A DNA stretch of 64,000 bases from Methanocorpusculum parvum (lineage in GTDB: Archaea > Halobacteriota > Methanomicrobia > Methanomicrobiales > Methanocorpusculaceae), in NCBI GenBank assembly GCA_015063085.1, contig SUTD01000001.1:1-64000 (forward strand), read 5' to 3'. The notes beneath the pieces are model-generated. The model was not told the DNA's origin. It worked only from the letters and a program-made list of their open reading frames with translations, and did no database searches. Shown here piece after piece: positions 55,633 through 62,580 of this stretch (its first letter is position 1; every line of letters starts with the position of its first letter). Both the position numbers and the translations under genes were made by a program.

Positions 55633-56154
55633 TCAGACAATCGAGTCAAGAGTAATCTCGAATGTCAGATACTCGCCGACAAGCGGCATTCTCATGAAAG
55701 CAAGAGAGACAATACCTACTTCATTATCCACCTTCATGACCTTTGCATACATCTGCTGATATCCGGCATCAGTCTGTACGGTTACCGTTAAAATCTCACC
55801 CTCAGCAGGAATCTCTCCCAGGCTTTCCTGCAGCTCAGAAATTTTCATATCCTGCATCATAGCCTCAGTAATCTCTCCGTATGCCTCAGACGGGGCAAGG
55901 CGAATCTTCTTGGTTTCACCAACCTTCATTCCGGAAACTGCAGCATCAAAGCCGGAAATCATCTGTCCTGCACCGACAACAAACTCAAGCGGAGTCTTTC
56001 CGACATTGGATTCATGAACCGTTCCATCATCCAGACTCAGCGTATAATACACAAAAACTCTATCGCCCGGTTGTGCGGTTCTTTCCTCAGCAATACATCC
56101 TGCACAAAGGATTACTGCTGCGAGCAGAAATACTGCGGCAAGTTTTTTCATCAT
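55633..56154 (-). CDS. Exported lipoprotein FKBP-type peptidyl-prolyl isomerase
   Basis: 173 residues. MKKLAAVFLLAAVILCAGC is a signal peptide ending in a lipobox-like LCAGC, so Cys20 (from the first Met) could be lipid-linked and the enzyme faces outside. FKBP motifs follow: DRVFVYYTLSLDDGTVHESN, QMISGFDAAVSGMKVGETKKIRLAPSEAYGE, VMKVDNEVG and YLTFEITLDS. The start may be the second Met at 56151. It probably folds secreted proteins. It is the third FKBP of the window and a clear paralogue of the gene at 55111. Confidence 0.9.
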   Translation of the reverse strand: MMKKLAAVFLLAAVILCAGCIAEERTAQPGDRVFVYYTLSLDDGTVHESNVGKTPLEFVVGAGQMISGFDAAVSGMKVGETKKIRLAPSEAYGEITEAMMQDMKISELQESLGEIPAEGEILTVTVQTDAGYQQMYAKVMKVDNEVGIVSLAFMRMPLVGEYLTFEITLDSIV

Positions 56155-56247
56155 ACCTCATTATTGGTATCCGTCAGAGATAACCTTTCAGTCATTACTC
56201 TGCCTGTCTCACTAACTATTTATAGTATATTTACAAATAGTATTCAC

Positions 56248-57006
56248 ATGGTTAATTTCACCTGCCCGAAGTGCGGGGCTCCGCTTCAGGTAAAACCCGG
56301 AACACAACTCTCAGTCTGTTCCTTCTGCGGTACGCCCTCGTACATCGACCGGCGAGAAGCAATATTCTTCTATATTCTGCCGTTTAAAATCGCAGACGAT
56401 GCTGCCCGCGGAATTTTCAAACGCTGGACTGCAAGTCCTGTATGCCCAAAGGACATGGAAACCGCTGCATCTATTACCGGTCTGAAAAAAACATACTTCC
56501 CGGTGTTTCGATTCAGAAGAACGGTTGACGGAAAAGAACAGGTATTCTCCAGACCGGCACGCGGAACTCTGCTTCCGGGAATGTACACAGTTGAAATCCC
56601 TCCGGGAGACATGATTATCTTCGACTCGGAAACCAAAACAGGAGGGGCAGCCGTCCTGCATCCGGATATCACAATAGATACGTACCTCCCCGAGCTCAAA
56701 GGAACGCCAATCGACCAGTCATTAGTCTACTTCCCAATCTATGAACTGACATACCGGTATGACGGAACTGAGTATGCAATGGTCATTGACGGCTCTTCCG
56801 GCAGAATCTCTGTTACCAACTCACCAAAACGAAGCTCAGTCTCATACGTTGCCGTGATGGCTCTCGCGTTTGTTTTGGGATTTATCGGAACACTGCTTGG
56901 ACTCCTGATACATCCGCTCTTCTTTGTCCTCGTGATTGCCGGAATCTTTGCCGGAAAGCTTCTGGCACATAGAGTCGTCAAAAAGCCGAACGGAGGTGCA
57001 GCATGA
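56248..57006 (+). CDS. Zinc-ribbon membrane protein (first gene of SPFH operon)
   Basis: 252 residues. N-terminal zinc ribbon CPKCGAPLQ...CSFCG (about 6-31). A middle domain has a TYFPVFRFRRTVDG motif near 90 and a second, VYFPIYELTYRYDGTEYAMV, near 160-179, ending in DGSSGRI. Two hydrophobic helices follow at about 196-240 (VAVMALAFVLGFIGTLLGLL, FFVLVIAGIFAGK). The frame is open upstream to 56014 on the antisense strand of the FKBP gene; ATG 56248 gives the ribbon at the start. The three-part plan resembles YdjG-type proteins. It overlaps the next, paralogous gene by 4 bp. Confidence 0.8.
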   Translation: MVNFTCPKCGAPLQVKPGTQLSVCSFCGTPSYIDRREAIFFYILPFKIADDAARGIFKRWTASPVCPKDMETAASITGLKKTYFPVFRFRRTVDGKEQVFSRPARGTLLPGMYTVEIPPGDMIIFDSETKTGGAAVLHPDITIDTYLPELKGTPIDQSLVYFPIYELTYRYDGTEYAMVIDGSSGRISVTNSPKRSSVSYVAVMALAFVLGFIGTLLGLLIHPLFFVLVIAGIFAGKLLAHRVVKKPNGGAA

Positions 57007-58034
57007 CAGCTCCGCGGAAAATTATCGTCTCCTTAACCTGCCCGAACTGCGGAGGTCAGGTTCATTCAGAAGAAGGAGAATCGTTAGTCCTCTGTAAATT
57101 CTGTGACTCAGTGTTCTCGCTCACCAGTGATGAAGGCATTCGGAAAATTATGTACCGCTTAGATGTCACCAGAGAACAGGTGGAAAGCCGGTTCTTTGAA
57201 TGGCTGAAGGAAGGACCGAAAGCCAGAGATCTGGCACAGAAAGCAGATATTACTGAAGCGTACCCAATCTATCTGCCGTTCTGGCGTCTGGTCGGACGCG
57301 GAAAATCCTGTGTCTGCGGAATCGAGATTCAGAGAGGCGGAAAAGACGAACCGGATAGAAGAATTCCTCACGAGTCTCTGGTGAACCGTGAGTACATCTA
57401 CTCAGACATCGCCTGCGATCCGGGAGACTTGGGAATTACTGCAATCCGTATTCCCGACCATGCAGAAGCAGTTGAGTTCGATGATGAATCAATTGTAACC
57501 TTTGGGGTTACTGAATCCCGCGATGATGCATACAGCGAAGGCTCTGAGCAGATTAAACGCCAGGCAATAGCGGATGGAAAGCGGTCAATGGATGAAATCC
57601 ACTTTGCCAAGTCGTTCTTCTTCGAAAAAGCATTCAGTCTGGTATACTATCCGTTCTGGATTGTCCGCTACACGTATCAGGACAGAGCATACTTTGCGGT
57701 ATTCGATGGGATTACTGCATCTGTTGTTTCCGGACGTGCTCCGGGAAATTCCGGCAGCCAGAGTACTGCGGCAGCTCTTGGAGGGACGCTTTCCGGCGCT
57801 GTCTTTGCTGTCTTCCTCTTCTTCGGATTTCTGCTTGGCGCATTGGAAGCTCTTGCCCTTCTCTTTGCCTTCGGTCTGGCAGCTGCTGCCGGCATCCTCT
57901 TCTTTGCCTATAACCGCTTCCGGTACGGAGATGAAATCTTAGAAGGAGCAATGAAGGGCAAAGGTCTCAAACGCGGAAAGAAACAGCAGAGCCTGGAGAC
58001 AAACTATGAAAATACCTATGATATGTTTAACTGA
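57003..58034 (+). CDS. Zinc-ribbon membrane protein, paralogue of the preceding gene
   Basis: 343 residues. Zinc ribbon CPNCGGQ...CKFCDS (about 12-37). The middle part shows YPIYLPFWRLVGRGKSCVCG near 82, a variable central region, and VYYPFWIVRYTYQDRAYFAV near 215-235 followed by DGITASVVSGR. The C-terminus has two membrane helices (about 258-303, GALEALALLFAFGLAAAAGI). The same domain order as the gene before but with a longer central region. By context it belongs to a membrane-associated complex with the SPFH protein. A basic tail (RGKKQQS) ends the protein. Confidence 0.78.
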   Translation: MTAPRKIIVSLTCPNCGGQVHSEEGESLVLCKFCDSVFSLTSDEGIRKIMYRLDVTREQVESRFFEWLKEGPKARDLAQKADITEAYPIYLPFWRLVGRGKSCVCGIEIQRGGKDEPDRRIPHESLVNREYIYSDIACDPGDLGITAIRIPDHAEAVEFDDESIVTFGVTESRDDAYSEGSEQIKRQAIADGKRSMDEIHFAKSFFFEKAFSLVYYPFWIVRYTYQDRAYFAVFDGITASVVSGRAPGNSGSQSTAAALGGTLSGAVFAVFLFFGFLLGALEALALLFAFGLAAAAGILFFAYNRFRYGDEILEGAMKGKGLKRGKKQQSLETNYENTYDMFN

Positions 58035-58043
58035 GGTGGAAAA

Positions 58044-58637
58044 ATGTCAATAGTATTACAGCCTCTCAAATGTTCCTCCTGTGCAGCCCCCTTAAAATCC
58101 AAAGAGCGGGACATGATGCTTATCTGCGGCCACTGCGGAAAAACATCCCTCTTTGCAGACGGAACAACCTGCCCGGTTGATTTTGCGATTGCAGAAGCAA
58201 CGGTCGAGGATTCCCATCCGCTTCTCTACATTCCCTTCTGGGTGGTGAATGCGGATGTCAACGTACATTACGAAAAAATCTCCGGCGGAGGAATTTCCCG
58301 GACAATATCGGGAAAAAAGCAGATGCGGGGACGCTATGATTTCTATATCTGTGCGGCAGACACTATCCCTGAAGAGTGTTCACGTATCTGGAACATGGAA
58401 TTGACCGTCAACCAGCCGGAGTTTGCTACGATTCCGGAGTTTAGAAACGGCAGCCGTATCGTCATGACCATGGAAAAAGAAACTGCAGAAAACAATGCGG
58501 AGTTCATCTTCCTGAGATATGAAACAGAAATTCCGGGAACGTTACAGGAGCTTGACTATGATTTTGCGGTCAATGCGACAAAAGTACTTTATCTTCCCGC
58601 GTACAAAAAAGCAAATAACTATCAGTTAGGAGTCTGA
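58044..58637 (+). CDS. Zinc-ribbon protein without membrane helices, third paralogue
   Basis: 197 residues. Ribbon CSSCAAPLKSKERDMMLICG with CGHCG (about 9-31). HPLLYIPFWVVNADVNVHYE near 56-75 is the counterpart of the PFW motif in the two upstream proteins. The C-terminal LYLPAYKKANNYQLGV is the counterpart of their YFPIYELTYR segment, but the protein stops there, so the membrane anchor is missing. It lies 9 bp after the second gene and 2 bp before the next. It is probably the soluble member of a three-paralogue set. Confidence 0.75.
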   Translation: MSIVLQPLKCSSCAAPLKSKERDMMLICGHCGKTSLFADGTTCPVDFAIAEATVEDSHPLLYIPFWVVNADVNVHYEKISGGGISRTISGKKQMRGRYDFYICAADTIPEECSRIWNMELTVNQPEFATIPEFRNGSRIVMTMEKETAENNAEFIFLRYETEIPGTLQELDYDFAVNATKVLYLPAYKKANNYQLGV

Positions 58638-58639
58638 AA

Positions 58640-58981
58640 ATGGATGCCGATACCAAAAAAATACAGTTAATCTGGGCAACAACCCTGTTAATGTTCGGCC
58701 TGGCAATTATTCTTGCAGCCGTTGTACCGACCTTCGGATTCTGGGAGGGAGCAGGAATCTTCCTCATTGGAACGGGTGTAGTATCCGGAGCAATCCAGCT
58801 CTTCGTTGGAGAGAAAGGACCAATCGGATTTTCGCTCTTTCTGACAATTGCCGGTCTTTTCCTGATGGTAAAGGCCTGCCTTGGAACTGTTCTTCCCGAC
58901 TTTGGGACGCTGTTCTGGATTGGCATCGCACTCATGATTATTGCAATTGGAGCAATTATTTCCATCGTCTTAAAAAAGTGA
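58640..58981 (+). CDS. Small multi-pass membrane protein
   Basis: 113 residues with four predicted helices: about 9-30, 33-54, 65-85 and 90-112. The loops are very short, with acidic ends (MDADTKK) and KK at the C-terminus. I do not recognise the family. The position inside the SPFH operon, 2 bp after the third zinc-ribbon gene and 7 bp before the helical gene, implies it is the membrane core or docking subunit. No metal-binding or enzymatic residues stand out. Confidence 0.7.
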   Translation: MDADTKKIQLIWATTLLMFGLAIILAAVVPTFGFWEGAGIFLIGTGVVSGAIQLFVGEKGPIGFSLFLTIAGLFLMVKACLGTVLPDFGTLFWIGIALMIIAIGAIISIVLKK

Positions 58982-58988
58982 GGCAGCT

Positions 58989-59525
58989 ATGACTGATTTA
59001 CGTGAAGCAGTACAGGAAGACCGGGGAATTCTGAAGAAGATTCAGCTCTTCATCCCCGGATTTTCCGGTTACCGGAAAAAAGAAGATTTACGCATTGCAG
59101 ATTCACTGCTGAGAAATCAGGTTGCAGACAACTTCAAGACGTCTGTTCTCATCCCGATCGAGATGGTAAGAGAATATGCGGCAAACTCGCTTGAGCTTGA
59201 TCTGATGAACGACATCGCAGGAGTTCTCGCAAAAGCAAAAACTCTTGAGTCATCCATTCGCCATGCAGAACAGGGGTACTCCGGAATCTCTGCAGCGGTC
59301 AGAATCCGCGAGGAGGAGTTAGACAAGCTCTATGAGTATGACTTATCCCTCTTTGAAGCAGTAAACGCCCTTGCTTTACAGGCAAAAGAGGCACGAGGTC
59401 TTGCAGAGGCAGGAGACTTTGGAGCGGTAAAGACGGTTCTTTTTGCCGTCAAGCGTGACATCATGGAGTTCTCTGCAGCCTTTGACCGCAGAATGGAGAC
59501 AATCGCTGGAATTGAGGTGGCATAA
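58989..59525 (+). CDS. Helical protein of the IPGFSGYxxKE type, partner of SPFH protein
   Basis: 178 residues, soluble and almost all helical, with no membrane helix. The N-terminal motif ILKKIQLFIPGFSGYRKKED followed by LRIADSLLRNQVADNF resembles a conserved helical protein I have seen next to bacterial SPFH/band-7 genes (pattern IPGY-GY...E-R--AD--LR). The C-terminal half, about 100-178, may form a coiled coil. It abuts the SPFH gene without a gap. The function is unknown; a scaffold or PspA-like partner is possible but unproven. Confidence 0.7.
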   Translation: MTDLREAVQEDRGILKKIQLFIPGFSGYRKKEDLRIADSLLRNQVADNFKTSVLIPIEMVREYAANSLELDLMNDIAGVLAKAKTLESSIRHAEQGYSGISAAVRIREEELDKLYEYDLSLFEAVNALALQAKEARGLAEAGDFGAVKTVLFAVKRDIMEFSAAFDRRMETIAGIEVA

Positions 59526-60710
59526 ATGGGATTATTTTCCAAGGTAAATCAGAAAATCAACTCCGGCTCTGACATCGAAGGAGCTGACGCACGTGCAGGA
59601 TTCTACTGGGTTGAGGATTACAAAGGAGACAACCTCATCTGGCGGCTTCCGCGAAACATCATCTTAAACGACAACGTGCTTGTCAGAGAAGATGAGTATG
59701 GTATCTTCTTCCGCGACGGCAAAGCTCTTGCCGTCTTTGACCGCCCGGACCGATATGCATTAACCACACAGAACATCCCGATCTTAAAAGACATCATCGG
59801 TGCTACGATGGGTAACGTCCAGATTGGAGAGTTCTACTGGGTTCAGAAACGTGAGTTCAGAGACAAATTCGGAACTTCCCAGCCTTTGGCATTCCGCGAC
59901 TCGGACTTCGGCGTTGTTCAGCTTCGCATGTTTGGTCAGTTCGCATACAAAGTCGCAGACCCAATGCTCCTGATTACCCAGTTTGTCGGAACAAAGGGCC
60001 TTACCAAATCAGAAGAAGTTGTCGAATGGCTGAAGAGCCAGATTGTGATGGTCTTAAACGACATCTTAGGCGAGCTCAAAACAAAGAAGCAGATGGGCGT
60101 CCTTGATATGCCTGCATATCTGCAGGAGATTGAGCAGATGTGTCTTGCAAAACTCACTGCCGAGACCGAAAATTATGGTCTCAAGATTATGAAGTTTGCA
60201 GGCCTTACCATCAGCATGCCGGATGAGGTTCAGGAAGCCATAAACAAGCGCGGCGCCATGTCTGCTCTTGGCGTGAACTACATGCAGTACCAGTCCGGAA
60301 AGGCCATTGAAAATATCGGCGTCGGAGCCGCACAGGGCGGAGACGGTGCAGGATTTGCCATGATGGGCGCAGGAATGGGCGCAGGAATCGGAATGGGCAA
60401 CATGATGATGCAGGGAATGGGCGGAGGCGCTGCTCCGTTTGGTCAGGCACAGCCGCAGACTGCAGCACCTGCCGGAAAGGCCTGTGCAAAGTGCGGAGCT
60501 GTTGTTCCGGACGGTGCAAAGTTCTGCCCCGGATGCGGAGAGAAGCAGACATCCGGCTCCTTCTGCCCGGAGTGCGGAGCGGCAGTTCCGCCAGGCTCTA
60601 AGTTCTGTCCGGAATGCGGAAAGAAAATGGGAGCAGCCGCATGTCCAAAGTGCGGAGCAGAGTTGGCACCCGGTACAAAATTCTGTCCGGAGTGCGGTGA
60701 GAAAATATAA
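59526..60710 (+). CDS. SPFH/band-7 (YdjI-like) protein with three C-terminal zinc ribbons
   Basis: 394 residues. Residues about 20-255 form an SPFH domain of the YdjI/virion-core-like group: IWRLPRNIILNDNVLVREDE, YALTTQNIPILKDIIG, YWVQKREFRDKFGTSQPL and VVQLRMFGQFAYKVADPMLL. A helix (about 205-265) and a Gly/Met-rich linker (about 275-305) lead to three zinc ribbons: CAKCG...CPGCG, CPECG...CPECG and CPKCG...CPECG (about 317-393). SPFH proteins form membrane-bound rings or scaffolds. No N-terminal membrane helix is seen, so it must dock on the membrane through partners. Last gene of the operon. Confidence 0.88.
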   Translation: MGLFSKVNQKINSGSDIEGADARAGFYWVEDYKGDNLIWRLPRNIILNDNVLVREDEYGIFFRDGKALAVFDRPDRYALTTQNIPILKDIIGATMGNVQIGEFYWVQKREFRDKFGTSQPLAFRDSDFGVVQLRMFGQFAYKVADPMLLITQFVGTKGLTKSEEVVEWLKSQIVMVLNDILGELKTKKQMGVLDMPAYLQEIEQMCLAKLTAETENYGLKIMKFAGLTISMPDEVQEAINKRGAMSALGVNYMQYQSGKAIENIGVGAAQGGDGAGFAMMGAGMGAGIGMGNMMMQGMGGGAAPFGQAQPQTAAPAGKACAKCGAVVPDGAKFCPGCGEKQTSGSFCPECGAAVPPGSKFCPECGKKMGAAACPKCGAELAPGTKFCPECGEKI

Positions 60711-60760: not shown

Positions 60761-61555
60761 TTAGAACTCCGTGTCCTTTGGGACACAGAGTTTATGGGTT
60801 CTGCAGGTGTTTTCAAACGTATTCACCGTCACATCAACGTTGTATACCTTCCTGATGAGATCAGCATCCAAAACATCCTCCGGCGTTCCGTCAGCAATCA
60901 CGCGTCCTCCATACATCATTACCACGCGGTTTGCGTAGATGAAGGCATGATCCGGATTGTGCGTTGAGAGGATAATGGTATATCCGTTTTTGGCAAGTCC
61001 TGCAACCCGCTGCATCACGCGGAACTGGTTTCCGTAATCCAGATTTGCTGTCGGCTCATCCATGATTAAAATCTTCGACTTCTGCACCAGTGCGCGGGCA
61101 ATTAACACAAGCTGACGCTCTCCGCCGGAAATTTCCCCATATCCGGCATGTTCCAGGTGAGCAATGCCGAGACTTTCCAGTGCCTTTCTGGCTTCTTCGA
61201 TATGTTCCTGCTTTGGAGAAGACAGTACGCTTAGACTGCTGGTTAATCCCATCATCACTACATCCAGCACTTCATAGTTGAATGCCGGATGGGTTGACTG
61301 TGGAATATAGGCAATCTGCTTTGCAATCTGCTTGTGTGTCATTGCGGCAATATTTGTCCCGTTTAAGAAAATCTCGCCTGAATATTTTTTCATAAAGCCG
61401 AGCATACACTTGAAAAGCGTACTCTTTCCAACACCGTTCGGGCCGAGAACTGCAACTAAATCTCCTTTTTCGGTTGAGAATGAGACATCGTGCAGCACCT
61501 GCGGCCCTTTTCTGCTGTAGGCAAAACTCACGTTTTTGATATCCAGGGTTTTCAT
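60761..61555 (-). CDS. FecE/BtuD-type ABC transporter ATP-binding protein
   Basis: 264 residues. Walker A GPNGVGKST near 38-46, Q-loop AYIPQSTHPAFNYEV, signature GEISGGERQLVLIARAL, Walker B ILIMDEPTANLD and the switch His in STHNPDHAF. It is the iron-complex/cobalamin importer type. The frame runs 32 codons further upstream, but ATG 61555 begins just before the conserved DIKNVSFAY. It overlaps the permease gene by 4 bp. A C-terminal Cys-containing tail (CRTHKLC) is present. Confidence 0.92.
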   Translation of the reverse strand: MKTLDIKNVSFAYSRKGPQVLHDVSFSTEKGDLVAVLGPNGVGKSTLFKCMLGFMKKYSGEIFLNGTNIAAMTHKQIAKQIAYIPQSTHPAFNYEVLDVVMMGLTSSLSVLSSPKQEHIEEARKALESLGIAHLEHAGYGEISGGERQLVLIARALVQKSKILIMDEPTANLDYGNQFRVMQRVAGLAKNGYTIILSTHNPDHAFIYANRVVMMYGGRVIADGTPEDVLDADLIRKVYNVDVTVNTFENTCRTHKLCVPKDTEF

Positions 61556-62580
61556 GAACGTCTGCCTCCCATCATCAGGAGATAGGCAAAGATTGGCGCA
61601 CCGACAAATGCTGTTAAAATTCCAATCGGGATTTCGGTTGTTGTAAGACACCGTGCAAGATCATCGACTACGAGCAGAAATGCTCCGCCCATAACGATGG
61701 CTGAAGGGATTATTCTTCGGTAGTCGCATCCGAAGATCATCCGGCAGAAGTGCGGGATTACAAGACCAATCCAGCCGATGATACCGGAGATGGAAACGGC
61801 TGCTGCCGTAATCAGGGTTGCACAGGAGACGACAATCAGCCGAAGCCGGTTCGGATTGATTCCCATGCTCTTTGCCTCGTCTTCTCCCAGGGTCAGAACA
61901 TTCATCCTCCAACGGAGGAGGAAGATAGGGATGATGCCAATCAGAATCAGCACACCGGCAAAAATCACATCACCCATATCTGCATCCGCAAGGCTTCCCA
62001 TCAGCCAGTAGGTAATTTCCGGCAGCTGGTCTTCTGTGTCCGCGACGGTCTTCAAAAACGAGGTCATTGCGGTAAACAGACTGCTGACCAGGATACCGGC
62101 TAAAACCATTGAAAGCGTTGCACTTCCTTTGGTGAGCCGGCTTACTACATATGCAGCCCCGACACAGATGACGGCACCGGCAAACGCAAATGCGGTAATC
62201 CAGACAGGGCCTAAGTTCATGAAGATGGCAAGGGCAGCTCCAAATCCTGCTCCGGATGATGCTCCCAGGATGTCTGGAGACACCAGCGGATTCTGGAACA
62301 TTCCCTGATATGCAGCCCCGGCTGTTGCAAGAGCTGCGCCGACAAAGAATGCCGCCAGAATACGCGGGAGACGGATGTTGATGACCGTGCTCCAGGTCGC
62401 ATAATCCCAGACGATATCGAGATGGAAAATCTCTGTTGCGAAGATCATCAGCACATCCGAAAGCGAAACCGGGAATCTTCCAACGGCAAACGAGAACAGA
62501 ATACACAGCAGCGCCGCTGCGCTGAGCAGGATGAAACGAAGTGTATAATTTGGCACATGCCGGGTTTTCTGTTCTGTCAT
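61552..62580 (-). CDS. FecCD-type ABC transporter permease
   Basis: 342 residues, ten or so membrane helices of the BtuC/FecCD family: RLPRILAAFFVGAALATAGAA near 73-93, QNPLVSPDILGASSGAGFGA, and the coupling-helix and C-terminal motif IGLVIPHFCRMIFGCDYRR near 280. It imports iron chelates, cobalamin or similar compounds with the ATPase downstream. No periplasmic-type binding protein gene lies upstream; the next gene there (62708) is divergent. The binding protein must be elsewhere, or the pair is used with a distant partner. Confidence 0.92.
   Translation of the reverse strand: MTEQKTRHVPNYTLRFILLSAAALLCILFSFAVGRFPVSLSDVLMIFATEIFHLDIVWDYATWSTVINIRLPRILAAFFVGAALATAGAAYQGMFQNPLVSPDILGASSGAGFGAALAIFMNLGPVWITAFAFAGAVICVGAAYVVSRLTKGSATLSMVLAGILVSSLFTAMTSFLKTVADTEDQLPEITYWLMGSLADADMGDVIFAGVLILIGIIPIFLLRWRMNVLTLGEDEAKSMGINPNRLRLIVVSCATLITAAAVSISGIIGWIGLVIPHFCRMIFGCDYRRIIPSAIVMGGAFLLVVDDLARCLTTTEIPIGILTAFVGAPIFAYLLMMGGRRS

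Follow-up and report, generated by a model that had tools for sequence, protein, structure and literature searches.

The window, by which we mean the whole stretch of DNA that was analysed (64,000 nucleotides from Methanocorpusculum parvum), contains six intact open reading frames between positions 56248 and 60710, all on the forward strand, which we call genes A to F. Their junctions measure -4 bp (A/B), 9 bp (B/C), 2 bp (C/D), 7 bp (D/E) and 0 bp (E/F), in full agreement with the positions and gaps given in an earlier note on this DNA. Both flanking genes lie on the reverse strand and encode an FKBP-type protein upstream (55633-56154) and an ABC ATPase downstream (60761-61651). The forward-strand region preceding gene A (56205-56247) holds a TATA-like promoter sequence, TTTATA, about 28 nt 5′ of the start of A, and most close relatives have TTTATA or CTTAT(A/C) boxes at a comparable distance, though these are less clear in others. 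Gene A is probably leaderless, whereas Shine-Dalgarno-like sequences precede each of genes B to F. From sequence, this layout has the look of a single operon that opens with a leaderless gene, and the arrangement is not a matter of chance, because the order of the genes is conserved across genera, families and another phylum.

Genes A (56248-57006), B (57003-58034) and C (58044-58637) each open with a CxxC...CxxC zinc ribbon and carry a YdjG-like domain, which is beta-rich in B. As the earlier note had it, only two of these three zinc-ribbon proteins are anchored in the membrane: by hydropathy, A has two helices, located at its C-terminus, B has one by threshold, and C has none. In the predicted model of B there are two long helices (250-278 and 281-308), and the presence of a basic tail after this membrane hairpin suggests that the ribbon domain of B is cytoplasmic. 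The fold of the model found no significant match in the PDB; against two giant-virus DnaJ-like proteins, Foldseek gave E-values of about 6e-5 to 8e-5 with TM-scores of 0.27-0.37. Their sequences mark A, B and C as paralogues, which had also been proposed, with profile-against-profile E-values (hhalign) of 3e-29 for A-B, 1e-11 for B-C and 1.5e-10 for A-C, the last similarity lying mainly in the ribbon and the first motif. Repeated YxPFW/YxPhW-type motifs are kept in all three. A second set in the same genome (L175 6863-9017, G000:C13), which adjoins a RecQ-like helicase and is found in most of the genus, comprises an A-like gene without a ribbon next to a B-like/C-like fusion of 499 aa, and this fusion suggests that B and C may be in contact. 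Given that the ribbons also produce weak matches to TFIIB-type models, one could think of a set of genes related to transcription, but three of the products (A, B and D) are membrane proteins, and the ribbon makes up just a short stretch of every protein that has one, so we regard this reading as extremely improbable.

Gene D (58640-58981) encodes a small protein for which hydropathy gives four membrane helices. In 61 of 95 loci, the gene immediately upstream of E encodes a small protein with three or four helices, and since only some of these proteins are detectable homologues of D, their equivalence to it is argued from position and size. Gene F (59526-60710) encodes an SPFH protein that matches Pfam Band_7_1 with an E-value of 2.7e-39 (135.4 bits, for a curated cut-off of 24), followed by a Gly/Met-rich linker and three zinc ribbons, and it has no membrane helix; by its sequence, it is a YdjI-type SPFH protein. 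Between them lies gene E (58989-59525), which contains IPGFSGY and is predicted to form a helical bundle (mean pLDDT 85.6). Thus, hydropathy, the structural model and Pfam bear out the three kinds of protein that had been described for this part of the locus.

E occurs widely in archaea, has an invariant motif, PGxxGYR..ED.R..D...R, and is without a described function. Across 64 homologues, residues P23, G24, G27, Y28, R29, R35, D38, R42, D118 and R168 do not vary. The closest described family is a distant one: 63 of the 64 E proteins match NF047596 (the LIMLP_15305 family of Leptospira, in NCBIfam), but far under the family cut-off, P0005 for instance scoring 40.7 bits where 210 bits are required, which speaks for a distant relation only. 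No sequence match to PspA was obtained, and a PspA or ESCRT-III fold was rejected, as Foldseek found no significant match in the PDB (the best being IncA, E 0.014), neither PspA nor ESCRT-III was among the best 50 matches, and the E profile gave only weak helical-bundle matches to PDB sequences. Two further candidates were discarded, namely that E is a relative of TelA, for which we found no homology, and that its first helix is an amphipathic membrane helix like that of PspA, for which the hydrophobic moments are modest. No E was found in plasmids. Since E has neither a PspA sequence match nor a significant fold match, we argue its role from its position, which would be that of PspA in Bacillus.

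The pairing of E and F is near-obligate. Their presence and absence are identical in 61 genomes, of which 26 contain both genes and 35 contain neither, and E lies directly upstream of F, on the same strand, in 95 of 100 loci; the remaining five all lie within 262 bp of a contig end. B follows a similar pattern: in a set of 35 genomes, all 26 that contain E also contain B, and seven of the nine without E lack it. Of the other two, G009 is an 85%-complete draft in which A and B are near a contig end, and G015, a 74%-complete assembly in which E and F were not found, carries decayed copies of A and B with in-frame stops (L179 7572-9261). The earlier note had staked its reading on co-occurrence in other genomes, and the genes do co-occur.

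The order A-B-C-D-E-F recurs in Methanocorpusculum and its relatives, and the operon is near-universal in that genus. In the nearest genomes, E is 83-91% identical, and the nearest named E-bearing records are Methanocorpusculum of goat, water-buffalo and dairy-cattle gut. Nevertheless, the six genes are not a rigid block. Several congeners have only D-E-F at the locus, with A-B-C elsewhere in the genome, and in L047, A-B-C is divergent from D-E-F; A-B-C is therefore separable from D-E-F, and we see them as two cassettes that go together. The invariant core consists of E and F, in most cases joined by a D-like protein, and not of the ribbon proteins. In two congeners that also have the standard set, a second and very divergent set was observed, one consisting of E-F and A-B-C (G017, L061 7261-12246) and the other of an F-like gene and A-B-C (G019, L182 5541-9581).

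When 84,980 species genomes were scanned with the E alignment, at least 80 loci were found, and among the matches listed nearly all were Methanomicrobiales and Thermoplasmatota-type records, plus one Desulfurococcales record. E is present in 61 of 194 Thermoplasmatota genomes. In that phylum, the DHVE2 archaea have A-B-C-small membrane protein-E-F, as in the window, while others mostly have E-F-B or E-F alone; several other Halobacteriota have the order E-F-A-B-C. In a tree of E and F, which has an arbitrary root, a quick search behind it and some very long branches, the Methanomicrobiales form one group (SH-aLRT 100) and, together with DHVE2 and Aciduliprofundum-type records, a supported set (98) inside a larger part made up mostly of Thermoplasmatota. 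These sequence data can reasonably be read as a transfer of the whole operon between the two phyla.

As the earlier note had stated, PspA is missing from the operon, and we did not find it in the window's genome (1.40 Mb, about 80% complete) or in five further Methanocorpusculum genomes. It was likewise not found in 16 other E-bearing genomes, and only one of the 194 Thermoplasmatota genomes has a PspA above cut-off. A TPM-domain protein, the counterpart of YdjH, was not found in 31 genomes of the order (the window's genome and 30 relatives) with a model that matches controls in 8 of 14 cases. Because both PspA and the TPM protein are absent, the system cannot work here by PspA docking. One might suppose that E and PspA exclude each other, and phylum-wide the counts differ (PspA in 4 of 17 E-bearing genomes against 137 of 278, p 0.046), but we rejected this idea. 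The contrast is driven by lineage, since outside the Methanomicrobiales four of seven E-bearing genomes have PspA and the Thermoplasmatota are nearly free of it. Furthermore, the four E-bearing genomes of the phylum sample that have both keep PspA elsewhere in the genome, and this coexistence means that E and PspA are not strict substitutes. It is doubtful, in our judgement, that E is an unrecognised archaeal counterpart of PspA/ESCRT-III in function, a helical protein that acts on membranes and is recruited by an SPFH partner of its own. If it were, PspA-less archaea would repair their membranes with a separate, convergent device that uses the same scaffold of SPFH and zinc-ribbon proteins.

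We consider it rather probable that genes A to F represent a PspA-less archaeal branch of the systems in which an SPFH protein and YdjG-like proteins form a membrane scaffold. F would oligomerise into a scaffold on the cytoplasmic face, and the membrane proteins D, A and B would recruit it and hold the scaffold at the membrane, with A, B and C possibly assembling as one unit through their YdjG-like domains, as the B-like/C-like fusion also suggests. Translational coupling could match the level of E to that of F, and E may bind F as a dedicated partner, acting as an adaptor or effector in place of the PspA of Bacillus. Under envelope stress, such an assembly would serve the upkeep of the membrane or of its proteins, and this role in membrane stress or membrane-protein maintenance is our best guess. 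We favour it because of the homology to the Bacillus system and because of sporadic neighbours, namely an M48 protease and an arrestin-fold gene.

The first of these neighbours bears on an alternative in which F, as a cage or scaffold, would present membrane proteins to M48/HtpX or another protease and the ribbon proteins would act as client adaptors, so that the system would serve membrane-protein quality control and not membrane repair. SPFH families such as HflK/C and prohibitins do work with FtsH (PMC2636767), and in three Thermoplasmatota loci (L112, L127 and L136) a separate B-like gene, close to E-F, is divergent from an M48 (HtpX-type) protease gene. However, the link to a protease is confined to these three loci and involves the separate copy of B, and the A-F operon itself contains no protease; we therefore hold this explanation to be unlikely.

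The second neighbour, a gene with an arrestin fold (Pfam Arrestin_N/C), is found downstream of E-F-B in a few loci, among them L107 (6683-7171) and L112 (9514-9969), and it could be taken as a sign that the operon belongs to an ESCRT-like system of methanogens such as Meth_adaptin, which also includes an SPFH protein with a zinc ribbon as well as ribbon-bearing proteins (PMC10936438). Nevertheless, no Vps4-type gene was recognised among the annotated recurrent neighbours, and no Snf7-family match was obtained in the window's genome or 40 relatives, with a weak model that among controls matches only Sulfolobus. Such membership is thus very improbable.

Neighbours of a different kind are found around related SPFH genes. 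In a congener (L181 282-8985, G002:C62), a Band_7_1 SPFH gene with zinc ribbons is followed by genes for three large proteins that all combine an N-terminal ribbon with TPRs and a TIR domain, which gives the locus the look of a conflict-system operon, and on the Vibrio plasmid p1ST2 (L170 669-8106), TIR-domain and TRAFs-binding genes adjoin an SPFH/YdjG-like pair. A conflict or antiviral function of genes A to F could be proposed on these grounds, but we recognised no toxic effector, PADLOC gave no meaningful match, only two weak partial ones, and the near-universality of the operon within its genus is unlike most defence islands. We consider such a function improbable, and a scaffold for membrane protection remains the reading that we prefer.

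Little is known of how archaea respond to membrane stress, and over half of their genomes have no Psp domains (PMC9239133). A compact, conserved operon in which the SPFH and YdjG-like components are kept without PspA is a testable candidate for membrane protection in such archaea. A close point of comparison is pspA-ydjGHI of B. subtilis, in which the soluble YdjI depends, as does PspA, on YdjG and YdjH for its recruitment to the membrane (PMC8581546). Of these two recruiting proteins, YdjG carries zinc ribbons, while YdjH contains a TPM domain (PMC11237479). The archaeal set shares with it an SPFH protein that lacks a membrane helix and has a C-terminal zinc-binding motif, in an operon with a zinc-ribbon membrane protein of the YdjG kind. 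In contrast to the Bacillus operon, it has no PspA and no YdjH, adds D and E, and contains three YdjG-like paralogues instead of one.

We judged this homology through Enterococcus proteins, in place of the B. subtilis sequences. On plasmid pK205-4a-A of Enterococcus gallinarum, the gene for a hypothetical protein lies between adjacent SPFH and TPM genes. The SPFH product matches F, and the hypothetical protein matches the B profile with 70 bits in a small set (hhalign E 2.5e-18, about 290 columns). The E. gallinarum operon matches F and A/B/C by profile and, like the archaeal one, has no PspA alongside, but it includes the TPM protein and lacks D and E. The resemblance to a YdjG-YdjI module that the earlier note had drawn thus holds for the ribbon and SPFH proteins and fails for YdjH, which has no counterpart here. 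The idea of a bacterial-type module, similarly, is right about the YdjG-like and YdjI-like parts, but less so about the whole, given that the core is E-F, that A-B-C can sit elsewhere and that the set is widespread in a phylum nearly free of PspA.

Other systems show similar combinations. In Comamonas, Vibrio and Paracoccus, adjacent genes for an SPFH protein and a protein with a TFIIB-type ribbon match the F and A/B profiles, but no C-terminal zinc ribbons are visible in these SPFH proteins and E is absent. On the Paracoccus plasmid pFER4 (L171 3707-8425), TelA and DUF2927 genes lie upstream of the SPFH and YdjG-like genes, so that TelA, which is not homologous to E, is a further helical protein that occupies the position of PspA or E. 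The Meth_adaptin ESCRT loci (PMC10936438) share a methanogen SPFH protein with a zinc ribbon, but differ in that no Vps4, adaptin or ESCRT-III was seen here. The A-F set separates the scaffold from its PspA cargo: the SPFH/YdjG-like scaffold is of a known kind, and what is new is that it has here a PspA-independent core.
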